In this document: piece by piece, positions 11,820 through 44,393 of the stretch
Position numbering within the stretch: the first letter of the stretch is position 1
Layout: the number at the start of each line of letters is the position of its first letter
Source: Zobellia uliginosa
Lineage (GTDB): Bacteria; Bacteroidota; Bacteroidia; Flavobacteriales; Flavobacteriaceae
Assembly (NCBI RefSeq): GCF_018860745.1
Contig: NZ_JAHKPY010000003.1
Location: 310,001 to 374,000, forward strand
Length of the DNA stretch: 64,000 bases
Reading direction: 5' to 3'
Position numbers and translations under genes: made by a program
Notes under the pieces: model-generated
What the model was told of the DNA's origin: nothing
Seen by the model: only the letters and a program-made list of their open reading frames with translations
The model's database searches: none

Positions 11820-13211
11820 TTACTGAAAAATAAGACGTTCTCTTTCCCCTTTTTCATTAATCATAGTTATACTCGTTTTTCCGTATTTAGAAATACTTCC
11901 AAAAAGGCTTCTTGCTTCCTCTATATCGTTTATTTCATTATCATCTACAGATAATAAAACCTTTCCTTCTAGGCCGTAACCACGATACGTTTCTGGAACT
12001 CCAACAATTTTCACTCCTTGTTTGGTCTTAAACTTCTTGTTGTCTTCTTTGCTCAAGTTCTTTACCTCTAGGCCCATTACTGGAACTATAACCGTTTGTC
12101 TTTTCTTTAACATTACAGGTACTGTAAACTCTTCTCCGTTCCTGTCTACCGTAACCTCAACAGAATCATTGGGTCTCTTTGCGGAAAGATATCCGGTAAG
12201 ATCGGCAAATTTGCGAACTTTAATATTATCAACTCTTTTGATAACGTCTCCTTCTTGTAGTTCTGCTTCTTCGGCTCCCGTGCCTTCCTCAATACCGGAA
12301 ATATATACACCTTCAATTTCATTCAATCCTTTTTCGATAGCGTAAGGAGTGTTGATGTTCAAAGTTTTTATACCCAATATTCCTTTTTGAACATTTCCAT
12401 ATTCAAGAATATCGTCTACTACTTTCTTAGCAATATTACTAGGTACGGCAAATGAATACCCTACGTAACTGCCTGTTTGAGAGGTGATCGCCGTATTTAT
12501 ACCCACTAAATCTCCATTAGTATTTACCAAAGCACCACCACTATTGCCAGGGTTTACAGCGGCATCAGTTTGTATAAAAGATTGATTTTTTCCTAAATCA
12601 CGGGCTTTAGCGCTTACAATTCCTGCGGTTACCGTTGATGTTAGGTTAAAAGGGTTGCCCACGGCCAAGACCCATTCTCCAATTTTCATATCATCGGAAT
12701 CACCAAAAGCTAAATATGGAAGATTTCCTTCGGCATCAATTTTAATAAGCGCAATATCGGAATTTGGGTCCGTACCTATAAGTTCAGCATCATAGGTCTT
12801 ATTATTGTTCAGCGTTACCTGTAATTTATTGGCTTTACTGATTACATGGTTATTGGTTACAATATATCCGTCTTGAGAAATAATAACACCAGAACCGGTT
12901 CCTACTTGAGGTCTCTCGCTACCACCGCTACCGTAGAAGAAATCCATTAAATTATGTGGTGTTCTGCTAATAGTTACGTTCTTAACGTGTACAACAGCAT
13001 TTACCGTATTTTCTGCTGCCACGGTAAAATCAACTTCATTGATGCCTGCTCCCTTCGCGGAAGTAGGGGTAAAACTTGTATTAAAAACCGAGTGGCCCTC
13101 ATCTTGGGTTATCACTGCGTAATTATTGTTTTCAAAAAATAATTTGTAGCTGCCCAGTGTGATTGCTCCAGCAAAAAGGGCGATAAAAAAGGTACTGGCA
13201 ATTTTTTTCAT
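11820..13211 (-). CDS. degP: HtrA/DegP-family periplasmic serine protease
   Basis: A 463-residue S1C protease. Residues about 5-26 are a hydrophobic export signal or membrane anchor. The trypsin-like domain has the triad His122 (NNHVIS), Asp152 (NSDIALIKID) and Ser224 (NPGNSGGALVN). Two PDZ domains follow (about 270-365, and a shorter one at about 370-460). It degrades or refolds damaged envelope proteins. The divergent 190-base gap to dapF contains, on this gene's strand, a tandem GTTAA-N6-GTTAA repeat and a TAATTTTA -7-like element arranged exactly as in front of the histidine kinase at 42091, suggesting control by that two-component system. Confidence 0.95.
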   Translation of the reverse strand: MKKIASTFFIALFAGAITLGSYKLFFENNNYAVITQDEGHSVFNTSFTPTSAKGAGINEVDFTVAAENTVNAVVHVKNVTISRTPHNLMDFFYGSGGSERPQVGTGSGVIISQDGYIVTNNHVISKANKLQVTLNNNKTYDAELIGTDPNSDIALIKIDAEGNLPYLAFGDSDDMKIGEWVLAVGNPFNLTSTVTAGIVSAKARDLGKNQSFIQTDAAVNPGNSGGALVNTNGDLVGINTAITSQTGSYVGYSFAVPSNIAKKVVDDILEYGNVQKGILGIKTLNINTPYAIEKGLNEIEGVYISGIEEGTGAEEAELQEGDVIKRVDNIKVRKFADLTGYLSAKRPNDSVEVTVDRNGEEFTVPVMLKKRQTVIVPVMGLEVKNLSKEDNKKFKTKQGVKIVGVPETYRGYGLEGKVLLSVDDNEINDIEEARSLFGSISKYGKTSITMINEKGERERLIFQ

Positions 13212-13243: not shown

Positions 13244-13251
13244 TAAAATTA
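13244..13251 (-). promoter_or_regulatory. Candidate -7 element of the htrA/degP promoter
   Basis: TAATTTTA on the minus strand, one mismatch from TAnnTTTG, 33 bases upstream of the ATG. No TTG is found 17-23 bases upstream, as expected of an activator-dependent promoter. Confidence 0.5.
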
Positions 13252-13279: not shown

Positions 13280-13295
13280 TTAACTCCGCTTTAAC
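13280..13295 (-). promoter_or_regulatory. Tandem direct repeat GTTAA-N6-GTTAA upstream of htrA/degP (candidate response-regulator box)
   Basis: On the plus strand the sequence reads GCTTTAACT twice with an 11-base period (13277-13285 and 13288-13296). Read on the gene's strand this is GTTAA (13295-13291), 6 bases, GTTAA (13284-13280), followed by 28 bases and the -7-like TAATTTTA. An 11-base direct repeat is the usual binding pattern of OmpR/PhoB-type regulators. The same arrangement with the same 28-base distance stands before the histidine kinase operon at 42032-42083. Confidence 0.6.
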
Positions 13296-31858: not shown

Positions 31859-32395
31859 ATGTTTAAGGGAATAAAAGATAAGTTCAAATACAAATCGGGC
31901 GTTAAATTTTTGAAACAAGAGTTGGCTAAAGATCCGCCAATAATTGAAAGAACTAAAGGTATAACCTCTATTGGTTGTATTGTTGATTTAGATGGCTTTG
32001 ATGATGCAAACCAATTTTATGGGTTTGTTGAAGATTATAATTTACGACCGAATGCGGTAAAGATTATTGGTTATAAAAGTTATTACGATAAGAATTCACC
32101 GTATTCAACTCCAGTTTTTTCAGATAAGGACCTTGGGTGGAACGGAGCAATAGAGAACAGCTATGCACTGGAGTTTTTAAGTAGGGAGTATGATTTGCTA
32201 GTGAACTACTACACCAGTGATAATTTATTACTACAGTTAATGAGCGTTAAGACTAGAGCCCGATTTCGTGTAGGTTTTAAAGATGTTGATCTCATATATA
32301 ATGATTTGATAATGGATTCGCCATTAAGTGACTTTAAAATTTTTAAAGCAGAACTTAAAAAATACCTTGGCGTTTTAAACGAAATTGAGCAATGA
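31859..32395 (+). CDS. DUF6913-like conserved protein
   Basis: A 178-residue soluble protein with no export signal. '[12 protein letters not shown]', '[15 protein letters not shown]', '[12 protein letters not shown]' and '[18 protein letters not shown]' are conserved in a Bacteroidetes family I know as DUF6913; function unknown. Its stop overlaps the dapA start (ATGA), so translation is coupled. Constant linkage to dapA suggests a role in or near lysine/diaminopimelate synthesis, but this is an inference. Confidence 0.72.
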
Positions 32396-42007: not shown

Positions 42008-42031
42008 GTCTCACGCCATTTTAACATTTTT

Positions 42032-42047
42032 GTTAAGGTTTGGTTAA
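42032..42047 (+). promoter_or_regulatory. Tandem direct repeat GTTAA-N6-GTTAA upstream of the histidine kinase operon
   Basis: GTTAA at 42032-42036 and 42043-42047, an 11-base period, in front of the kinase gene. It is followed by 28 bases and an exact -7 element TAATTTTG. A third GTTAA lies at 42066. The same repeat with identical 28-base spacing stands before htrA/degP (13280-13295). Likely a binding site for the OmpR-type regulator encoded in the operon (autoregulation). Confidence 0.6.
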
Positions 42048-42075
42048 ACGTACTACCTGCTATATGTTAAATCTT

Positions 42076-42083
42076 TAATTTTG
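42076..42083 (+). promoter_or_regulatory. Promoter -7 element of the histidine kinase operon
   Basis: TAATTTTG matches TAnnTTTG exactly, 7 bases before the ATG, so the transcript would be nearly leaderless. No TTG at -33, consistent with activator dependence. Confidence 0.55.
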
Positions 42084-42090
42084 TTTTTAA

Positions 42091-43671
42091 ATGAATAAGA
42101 GGTTATTTGTCCTTTTGGTGGCGTTGATGAGTCTCTCCCTGATAGGAATAATATCTGTTCAGTTCTTGTGGATAAAACAATCTGTTGAGGATAAGGAAGA
42201 ACAGTTTTCTAATACAGTATCTGAAGTCTTAAATGAGGTTTCCGATAAAATAGAGGAGAGGGAAACAAAGGACTATTTTGAGCGTTACATCAATATAAAG
42301 GATAGTGTAGGTGAGCCTAAAAGCTCTCACTTAAGAAATATTTTTTTTATAGATCGTGATTTAAACTCTAATGAGATACGGTTTTATTCCCATGGTATTT
42401 TAGAGGAAGATTATAATATAGCATCTACGTTCTTTGATAATGGTAATGGTAGTGATACTACCACGATTAAGGGGTATACCAGTAAGCGTACCAAAACAAT
42501 CTTTAAGGAAGATTTTGGTTTGGACGGTAAGGAGTATAAATTGAATGCCGTTCAAAAACTTGAGAAAATAGGAGGCTTATCGGCCATAGAAAAAGCTCAG
42601 TTTGAAGACGTTTTTAGTGAGTACGCAAAAAAAGTACCTATTCATAAAAGAGTTTCCAATCAGGAAATTAAGCTCCTTCTTAATCGAGAATTGAAAAATA
42701 GAAACCTGAATATTGATTATGAATATGGGGTGTACAGTAGAGGGCTTCCTACGAAAGTAAAGTCTAGGAAATTCAAATTTGAAAAGGACATGCTCTATGA
42801 AACACCTATCTTTAAGGATAGTGAAGGAGCAAGTAATTTCTCCTTATTGATTTCCTTTCCCAAGAAAAAGAAGTTTTTGATCGGTTCAATCATCAGAATG
42901 GCTCTTTTATCGCTTCTTTTTACATTGGTTATTGTAATTGCTTATTCTGGGGCTATTTATCAACTTATACGTCAAAAGCAGATATCAGAAATTAAATCTG
43001 ATTTCATCAATAATATGACGCATGAATTTAAAACACCTATTGCAACAATAAACCTGGCAGTAGAAGCTATACGGAATCCTAAAATTATAGGAGACCCAGA
43101 AAAGGTAGATAGGTATTTGACCATGATTCGCGAAGAGAATAAGCGGATGCACGCACAGGTGGAAAATGTATTGCGTATATCCAAGTTGGAAAAGAATCAA
43201 TTGGATATAAGTAAGGATAGGGTAGATGTACACGACATTATAGAAGATGCAATTGCTCATGTGGAGTTAATAGTTGCCGATAGAGGAGGATACATAGAAA
43301 CACATTTAAATGCAGAAAGAACGGAGGTTCTGGCCAGTGAAATGCATTTTACGAATGTAATCGTAAATATTCTTGATAACGCCATTAAGTATTCAACAAA
43401 AGCACCTAGGATAGACGTCTATACAGAGGTTGCAAAGAATTATATTGTAATTGAAATAAAAGATCAAGGTGCAGGAATGAGTAAAGCCGTGGTTAAAAAA
43501 GTATTTGAAAAATTCTACCGTGAGCATACGGGAGATTTGCATAATGTTAAAGGGCATGGGCTCGGTTTGGCATATGTGAAAAAAATAGTAGACGATCACC
43601 AAGGTGAAGTTTACGCAGAAAGTGAAAAAGGAAAGGGAAGTACTTTCTATATAAAATTGCCTTTAATCTAA
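42091..43671 (+). CDS. Membrane sensor histidine kinase (RprX/Cpx-like candidate)
   Basis: A 526-residue sensor kinase: first transmembrane helix at about 4-28, a periplasmic sensor region (about 30-263), second helix (about 264-292), then HisKA with His311 in 'NNMTHEFKTPIAT', and HATPase with N-box 'NILDNAIKYS', 'DQGAGMS' and 'GHGLGLAYVKKIV'. No HAMP domain is evident. The sensor region has no domain I recognise. Its partner regulator follows 11 bases downstream. The pair resembles Bacteroides/Porphyromonas RprX-RprY; the shared repeat at the htrA/degP promoter suggests an envelope-stress function. Confidence 0.92.
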   Translation: MNKRLFVLLVALMSLSLIGIISVQFLWIKQSVEDKEEQFSNTVSEVLNEVSDKIEERETKDYFERYINIKDSVGEPKSSHLRNIFFIDRDLNSNEIRFYSHGILEEDYNIASTFFDNGNGSDTTTIKGYTSKRTKTIFKEDFGLDGKEYKLNAVQKLEKIGGLSAIEKAQFEDVFSEYAKKVPIHKRVSNQEIKLLLNRELKNRNLNIDYEYGVYSRGLPTKVKSRKFKFEKDMLYETPIFKDSEGASNFSLLISFPKKKKFLIGSIIRMALLSLLFTLVIVIAYSGAIYQLIRQKQISEIKSDFINNMTHEFKTPIATINLAVEAIRNPKIIGDPEKVDRYLTMIREENKRMHAQVENVLRISKLEKNQLDISKDRVDVHDIIEDAIAHVELIVADRGGYIETHLNAERTEVLASEMHFTNVIVNILDNAIKYSTKAPRIDVYTEVAKNYIVIEIKDQGAGMSKAVVKKVFEKFYREHTGDLHNVKGHGLGLAYVKKIVDDHQGEVYAESEKGKGSTFYIKLPLI

Positions 43672-43682
43672 CTCAACAAGTT

Positions 43683-44393
43683 ATGGAAACAGTAAATAAA
43701 AAAATACTCTTAGTAGAGGATGATCCTAATTTTGGAATTGTTCTAAAAGATTATTTATCTATGAACGATTTTGATGTAACTCTGGCCAAGAATGGTATGG
43801 AGGGATTCGAAAAGTTTAAAAAGGATAATTATGACATCTGTATTTTAGATGTAATGATGCCTTACAAAGATGGTTTTACCTTGGCAAAGGAAATCCGTGA
43901 AAAGAACGAAAATGTTCCTATCGTATTTCTTACCGCAAAAACCATGAAGGAAGATGTATTAAAAGGTTATAAAGCAGGAGCGGATGATTATCTAAATAAA
44001 CCATTTGATTCAGAAGTTCTTTTGATGAAACTGAGAGCTATTCTTCAAAGAAAAGCGTCTAATACATTGGCAGACAGTAAGAAATTTGAATTTAAAATCG
44101 GTAATTTTCATTTAAACTCTAAGCTTAGATTCTTGAAGTACAAAGAAGAAGAAGCTATAAAATTATCTCCTAAAGAGAATGAGTTATTGAGACTTTTGGC
44201 GCTTCATGAAAATGATTTAATGCCAAGAGAATTAGCGTTGACAAAAATATGGAGAGACGATAACTACTTTACGTCTAGAAGTATGGATGTTTATATTGCT
44301 AAACTTAGAAAGTATCTTAAATTGGACGATACGGTAGAAATCTTGAACATTCACGGAGAAGGTTTCCGTTTGGTTGTTAAAGAAGACGTATAA
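43683..44393 (+). CDS. OmpR/PhoB-family response regulator (RprY-like)
   Basis: A 236-residue regulator with a receiver domain (residues 5-120; phosphoacceptor Asp56 in 'CILDVMMPYKDGF', Lys in 'LNKPFD') and a C-terminal winged-helix domain (about 140-236, 'KLSPKENELLRLLALHENDLMPRELALTKIWRDDNYFTSRSMDVYIAKLRK'). OmpR/PhoB-type proteins bind tandem direct repeats with 10-11-base periods, which fits the GTTAA-N6-GTTAA repeats found at its own promoter and at htrA/degP. It is likely the regulator bound there. The operon ends at the hairpin at 44413-44444. Confidence 0.95.
   Translation: METVNKKILLVEDDPNFGIVLKDYLSMNDFDVTLAKNGMEGFEKFKKDNYDICILDVMMPYKDGFTLAKEIREKNENVPIVFLTAKTMKEDVLKGYKAGADDYLNKPFDSEVLLMKLRAILQRKASNTLADSKKFEFKIGNFHLNSKLRFLKYKEEEAIKLSPKENELLRLLALHENDLMPRELALTKIWRDDNYFTSRSMDVYIAKLRKYLKLDDTVEILNIHGEGFRLVVKEDV

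Follow-up and report, generated by a model that had tools for sequence, protein, structure and literature searches.

The operon for a membrane histidine kinase and an RprY-like response regulator of Zobellia uliginosa and its gene for the periplasmic protease DegP have promoters of the same design. Both read GTTAA-N6-GTTAA-N28-TAATTTT[GA]. We suggest, with a probability of about 0.78 and on the strength of sequence comparison, that the RprY-like regulator binds the GTTAA box and controls its own operon as well as degP. The similarity of the promoters goes well beyond chance, and it recurs in most Flavobacteriaceae and in several other families of the Bacteroidia.

The two promoters in Zobellia uliginosa

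The window, that is, the whole stretch of DNA analysed, comprises 64,000 nt of the forward strand of contig NZ_JAHKPY010000003.1 (positions 310,001-374,000; assembly GCF_018860745.1) from a genome of 4.86 Mb (Table 1). The earlier note had described the two promoters as sharing the repeat period of 11 bases, the 28 bases to the -7 box and the orientation to the gene, and in all three points the sequence is exactly as claimed. It had also reported that the window holds no third copy. This is right for the N6 pair; pairs with N5 and N7 do occur, at 32236 and 61230, respectively.

Table 1. Features of the kinase operon and degP (window coordinates)
Feature	Position	Strand	Remarks
Tandem box GTTAA-N6-GTTAA, kinase operon	42032..42047 (GTTAA 42032-42036, 42043-42047)	+	predicted site of regulator dimer, about -56 to -41
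Third GTTAA half-site, kinase promoter	42066..42070	+	23 bases from start of second GTTAA; 10 bases ahead of -7 TA; about -22 to -18
Inverted half-site, kinase promoter (TTAAC on + strand)	42021..42025	-	11 bases ahead of first GTTAA
-7 box TAATTTTG, kinase operon	42076..42083	+	28 bases past second GTTAA
Membrane histidine kinase, RprX-like by position	42091..43671	+	HisKA + HATPase_c
OmpR/PhoB-type response regulator, RprY-like	43683..44393	+	Response_reg + Trans_reg_C; predicted box binder
Tandem box GTTAA-N6-GTTAA upstream of degP	13280..13295 (GTTAA 13295-13291, 13284-13280)	-	
-7 box TAATTTTA, degP	13244..13251	-	28 bases past second GTTAA
degP/htrA, periplasmic Do-type serine protease	11820..13211	-	Trypsin_2 + PDZ

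Inside the window the bare pair is weak evidence, because GTTAA-N6-GTTAA, which occurs twice, is found 0.49 times on average in shuffled sequences and two or more times in 10 of 100 shuffles. Across the genome, too, the bare pair shows no excess (24 instances versus 31 of the pattern read backwards). The full pattern GTTAA-N6-GTTAA-N28-TAnnTTT is present at these two sites only in the 4.86 Mb, and its backwards version is absent from the whole genome.

The kinase gene lies directly 5′ of the regulator gene, which is the RprXY-type arrangement, and the operon is preceded by a CoaE gene; degP is divergent from the gene of diaminopimelate epimerase. The regulator belongs to the OmpR/PhoB family by its domains, Response_reg with 103.2 bits and Trans_reg_C with 57.5 bits, each of which exceeds the cut-off. 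Its best family among 99 of NCBIfam is RprY (NF051850) with 283.6 bits, and since this falls under the cut-off of 370 we name the protein RprY-like and not RprY. The protease has the domains of the Do type (Trypsin_2, 128 bits; PDZ_2, 50.5 bits), and the Do family TIGR02037 is the best of 16 families with 385 bits, under its cut-off of 416.2. For the periplasmic part of the kinase a Pfam search gave no convincing domain. The structural model of this part has a mean pLDDT of 65.8 with residues 44-136 unreliable, and Foldseek returned no fold match for it (best E = 0.082).

Conservation in the Flavobacteriaceae

We analysed 149 Flavobacteriaceae genomes from 148 genera. The full pattern is matched in 121 of the 149, and in agreement with the earlier note, which had proposed such a search, the matches concentrate before the kinase operon and degP. 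Among the 152 matches listed, which come from 111 genomes, 96 are located before the kinase, 1566-1616 bases 5′ of the regulator gene, and 21 before degP, 18 of these at 27-44 bases from the degP start. The other 35 of the matches listed are elsewhere; as the backwards control pattern totals 20 in the 149 genomes, they represent a slight surplus, or chance explains most of them.

In order to avoid a selection driven by the pattern, the upstream regions were next taken by position and without regard to the -7 box. For degP this was possible in 145 of the 147 family genomes with DegP (in G048 and G062 the gene is at a contig end). The exact pair is found within 200 bases upstream of degP in 122 of the 145, and 140 have a pair with N5-N7 within 260 bases. 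If the region is limited to 160 bases, the N6 pair is present on the degP strand in 113 genomes and on the other strand in none, while shuffled sequences average 0.14 and never exceed 3. The kinase promoter was taken from 145 of the 146 family genomes with the regulator (in G103 the operon is split by a contig end); it carries the exact pair in 119 and an N5-N7 pair in 126. Where both promoters could be compared, an N5-N7 pair occurs at both in 121 of 142 genomes, at degP only in 17, at the kinase only in two and at neither in two. A second sample was chosen by the regulator protein alone and comprised 80 loci in named genomes. The promoter was in reach in 76 of these and the exact pair is present in 74. 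Repeat and spacing, whose loss in close relatives would have spoken against the earlier note by its own account, are therefore kept upstream of both genes.

There are exceptions which count against the proposed circuit. Nineteen of the 145 kinase promoters have no N5-N7 pair, and 17 of these genomes do have the pair at degP. Five of the 145 degP promoters are without it; four of these genomes have the regulator (G007, G023, G087 and G100) and one, G035, does not. Conversely, G058, a genome that is 80% complete, has degP boxes and no detected regulator. The degP gene and the kinase operon are 20-60 kb apart and on opposite strands in 91 of the 107 family genomes which have both on one contig.

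Architecture of the promoters

At both promoters the usual distance from the box to the -7 box is 27-28 bases. In the 74 boxed kinase promoters of the loci chosen by the regulator, TAnnTTT follows at 28 bases in 70 and at 27 bases in three, and is missing in one. Of the 122 boxed degP promoters of the family, 73 have it at 27 (52 promoters) or 28 bases (21) from the last box, where about 0.9 would be expected per offset; against this, 40 of the 122 have no TAnnTTT 20-39 bases beyond the box. According to PMC9723704 the flavobacterial -7 box lies at -12 to -5, so we place the pair at about -56 to -41.

The third GTTAA of the kinase promoter, which starts 23 bases after the second, is kept in 68 of the 74 promoters and the inverted TTAAC, 11 bases ahead of the first, in 40. 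Pairwise identity among these promoters amounts to 0.32 upstream and to 0.48 over the first 16 bases of the spacer; it reaches 0.94 for the third half-site and 0.96 for the letters of the -7 box, whereas the identity of 1.0 of the two GTTAA of the pair is a result of the selection. Many degP promoters are richer than that of Z. uliginosa: at least three GTTAA within 200 bases are found in 86 of 145, versus the two of the pair in Z. uliginosa, and the GTTAA spacings in the family peak at N5-7, N17-18 and N28.

That both promoters lack a -33 TTG, as the earlier note had stated, is correct for Z. uliginosa; it is not a general trait of degP promoters. In relatives, kinase promoters have the TTG no more often than expected by chance (11 of 73 versus 12.9 in shuffled sequences), and degP promoters are enriched in it (31 of 73 versus 8.4).

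The ATG of the kinase begins 8 bases past the end of the -7 box (42076-42091), and in 71 of the 72 measurable loci chosen by the regulator we predict a 5′ leader no longer than 5 bases. The kinase mRNA is thus probably near-leaderless, judged from the position of the -7 box. This would be unusual where few mRNAs are leaderless, and for F. psychrophilum a share of 5.5% is given in PMC9723704. It is possible that translation of the kinase starts instead at a later ATG within the first membrane helix.

Other families of the class Bacteroidia

The earlier note had regarded the circuit as one of the Flavobacteriaceae. This restriction does not hold, as boxes at the kinase operon and at degP are also present in other families. 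From the whole class we drew 197 genomes. A regulator match at 1e-60 was obtained in 149, 142 of them outside the Flavobacteriaceae, and 48 had no match. Thirty outside genomes were taken, namely the 30 with the best regulator scores except G153, G176 and G160, which makes 27, and G265, G236 and G281 from lower scores. In 26 of them a kinase adjoining the regulator could be read, and 19 of the 26 have a forward N5/N6 GTTAA pair in the promoter and none a reverse one (shuffle mean 0.07); this count leaves out G205, G260, G306 and G282. In the last two the better-scoring of two regulator copies has an array in its promoter.

Upstream of degP, taken as the best DegP match, an N5/N6 pair is found in 19 of the 30 outside genomes (shuffle mean 0.08). 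Ten of these pairs are forward and nine inverted. Among genomes with no detected regulator, 30 of the 48 were tried and DegP was found at 1e-50 in 28; only one of the 28 has the degP pair. The difference gives a Fisher probability of 9.6e-7 by genome and of 1.7e-5 by family (12 of 14 versus 1 of 16), to be read with the qualification that the regulator-bearing set was picked for closeness and the other set is more distant, that relatives are not independent and that the threshold of 1e-60 may miss diverged orthologues.

Matched spacing at the two promoters was considered as a proof of one binding protein and was dropped. Outside the family the two promoters agree in all 11 genomes in which each has one spacing only (6 N6/N6 and 5 N5/N5; Fisher 0.002, and 0.029 by family with 4 N5 versus 3 N6). 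This set includes G205 and G260, without which there are 5 N6/N6 and 4 N5/N5, and the test was conceived after the data had been seen. In a further four outside genomes the kinase promoter has mixed spacing and the degP promoter N5. Inside the family the agreement breaks down: 86 genomes have a single spacing at both promoters, and 74 are N6/N6, in eight the kinase has N6 and degP N5, in four the kinase has N5 and degP N6, and none is N5/N5. Either the regulator evidently tolerates both a 10-base and an 11-base period, or shared ancestry accounts for the agreement outside the family.

The regulator and a proposed mechanism

The link between the regulator and the box gains support because in many families the box precedes the operon that encodes the regulator, because it is nearly absent at degP where no regulator is detected, and because the expected recognition helix is unchanged. 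In what we take to be the DNA-contacting helix of this fold, the residues R199, S200, M201, D202, V203, K207, R209 and K210 are invariant in the regulators compared (60 of the 146 of the family and 26 from outside). This is in line with the unchanged GTTAA half-site. The assignment of both promoters to the RprY-like regulator, made in the earlier note, thus finds comparative support, for a wider group than the Flavobacteriaceae.

We suggest that the circuit could work as follows. The regulator would bind, probably as a dimer, to the two GTTAA half-sites one helical turn apart. Bound at about -56 to -41 it would help RNA polymerase to start at its own operon and at degP. The kinase may sense an envelope or protein-folding problem, and its signal would lead to more kinase, regulator and DegP. 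The third half-site, at about -22 to -18 and hence within the kinase core promoter, may cap the response once the regulator is abundant.

It is conceivable that the same regulator binds both boxes and mainly represses, so that stress releases its own operon and degP. The RprY protein of Porphyromonas gingivalis is reported in PMC3646045 as a repressor that binds the promoters of groES, dnaK and clpB besides its own. The position of the third half-site within the kinase core promoter would also suit a repressor. However, the conserved pair is located upstream of the core promoter at a near-fixed distance, and a site at a fixed distance upstream of the core promoter is a usual position for an activator. 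The -33 TTG of the kinase promoter, moreover, is not above chance. We favour activation because an upstream pair, a near-fixed distance to the -7 box and the lack of a -33 element make up the layout of an activated promoter, and we regard repression as unlikely, though deserving attention.

The boxes could further be recognised by a different DNA-binding protein, with the link to the kinase and regulator being incidental. The inverted pair in nine of the 19 boxed degP promoters outside the family would fit such a protein, as would the degP boxes of G058 with no detected regulator and the unmatched spacing of the two promoters inside the family. Against it, the boxes precede the regulator's own operon in many families and almost never occur at degP where no regulator is detected. 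Tandem half-sites one turn apart are in addition typical of OmpR/PhoB-type regulators. In our view a different protein is quite improbable.

The repeats might also be a matter of promoter or leader composition, such as AT-rich DNA or UP-like elements, with no specific regulator. In line with this, the bare pair is not enriched in the genome (24 versus 31), and similar pairs stand before unrelated genes in Z. uliginosa and in a genome of the same genus. Composition would hardly produce, however, the strand preference, the helical spacing peaks and the near-fixed distance to the -7 box across 148 genera, nor the lack of forward pairs at 30 skp loci, and we consider it a very remote explanation. 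Chance similarity within one genome, for which only the 10 of 100 window shuffles reaching two pairs could be cited, is refuted by the conservation counts in the family and in other families.

Returning to binding and activation by the RprY-like regulator, a wider proposal can be made, to which we give somewhat less than even odds. RprXY would be for the Bacteroidia as a whole what Cpx is for E. coli and its relatives: an ancient circuit for envelope stress that acts through GTTAA pairs or arrays and whose core regulon is very small, comprising the operon itself and degP. In the Flavobacteriaceae the kinase mRNA would be near-leaderless, and the output of the circuit may bypass ordinary leader control.

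Comparison with known systems

The box of the Escherichia coli type regulator CpxR is GTAAA-N4-8-GTAAA, also written TTTAC-N4-8-TTTAC (PMC9816388, PMC3158067), CpxR sites are located before cpxR (PMC3158067), and control of degP by Cpx is stated in a title cited in both papers. The present circuit is alike in having a kinase with an OmpR-type regulator, tandem half-sites of five bases, and its own operon and degP as proposed targets. It differs in that the half-site is GTTAA and not GTAAA, with GTTAA-N6-GTTAA at both promoters, and in that the proteins fall far short of the cut-offs of the Cpx models (CpxA 103 of 486 bits, CpxR 109 of 341). Furthermore, the sensor model matches no solved fold, and the full pattern stands at two promoters only in the Z. 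uliginosa genome. The earlier note had argued that the logic matches that of Cpx while the sequence differs. This is borne out: proposed targets and spacing are alike, half-site letters and proteins are not. The circuit is best read as Cpx-like in logic and not as a member of Cpx.

The closest relatives by protein family are RprX-RprY of Bacteroides fragilis and RprY of P. gingivalis; RprY is the best family of the regulator and the kinase gene is adjacent. PMC3646045 describes P. gingivalis RprY as a repressor and reports gel shifts in which it binds the groES, clpB and dnaK promoters as well as its own. Here the counterpart is a box conserved at the regulator's own promoter, where binding is predicted. 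The accessible texts ascribe to the P. gingivalis protein the control of oxidative stress, of chaperones and of a sodium pump and give no box; unlike the regulator studied here it is an orphan, with nqrA and chaperone genes as targets. An htrA under another P. gingivalis regulator is grouped with haemin-transport genes and is not the DegP protease (PMC5706477, in part). Neither of the two P. gingivalis papers searched contains the terms motif, consensus, binding site or degP. For B. fragilis, rprX/rprY are reported to be essential, and the part of PMC4072883 seen gives no box. Within the portion of the literature covered, no GTTAA box and no link to DegP is described for an RprY-type regulator.

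A GTTAA box with degP as conserved target would give the Bacteroidia an envelope-stress system that can be tested. It might also offer a reason for the essentiality of rprX/rprY and a reporter for finding the signal.

Regulators of the PhoB, PhoP and OmpR type have boxes made of direct repeats with a period of one helical turn, placed in front of a weak core promoter. The layout described here is alike; the half-site and the targets differ from those generally known for these regulators.

Other GTTAA pairs

We claim no target beyond the regulator's own operon and degP. The gene skp (OmpH family) was tried as a further conserved target and rejected. Loci were available for 30 of 39 matches, and only three of these 30 family loci (own genus and G018) have a pair, in each case inverted; forward GTTAA pairs number 0 of 30, so that skp can serve as a negative control.

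Of the 24 exact pairs in the Z. uliginosa genome, 20 lie outside open reading frames of at least 100 aa, and the backwards control pattern lies inside such frames in 24 of 30 loci (30 taken of 31). This comparison is not a fair one because GTTAA contains a stop codon. Some of the other pairs are close to genes of efflux systems, of glycoside hydrolases or of putative TonB-receptor-like proteins, and many are common to the same-genus genome. A text signature of TonB receptors occurs near one of 24 pairs in the Z. uliginosa genome, three of 26 in the same-genus genome G001 and none of 30 control loci, numbers too small to be used.

Two pairs are noted as observations in their own right. A GTTAAGGTTTTGTTAA pair, almost the kinase box, is inverted before a gene for an efflux membrane-fusion protein of the HlyD/CusB type (L068, 1501-1516, C8:523847-523862 of Z. 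uliginosa; also L482), and it is retained in the same-genus genome although the flanks differ. Before a gene of glycosyl hydrolase family 2 (L066, around 1501, C1:593451-593466 of Z. uliginosa; also L489), two species share an unchanged stretch of over 50 bases that contains two GTTAAAG repeats, with differing flanks.
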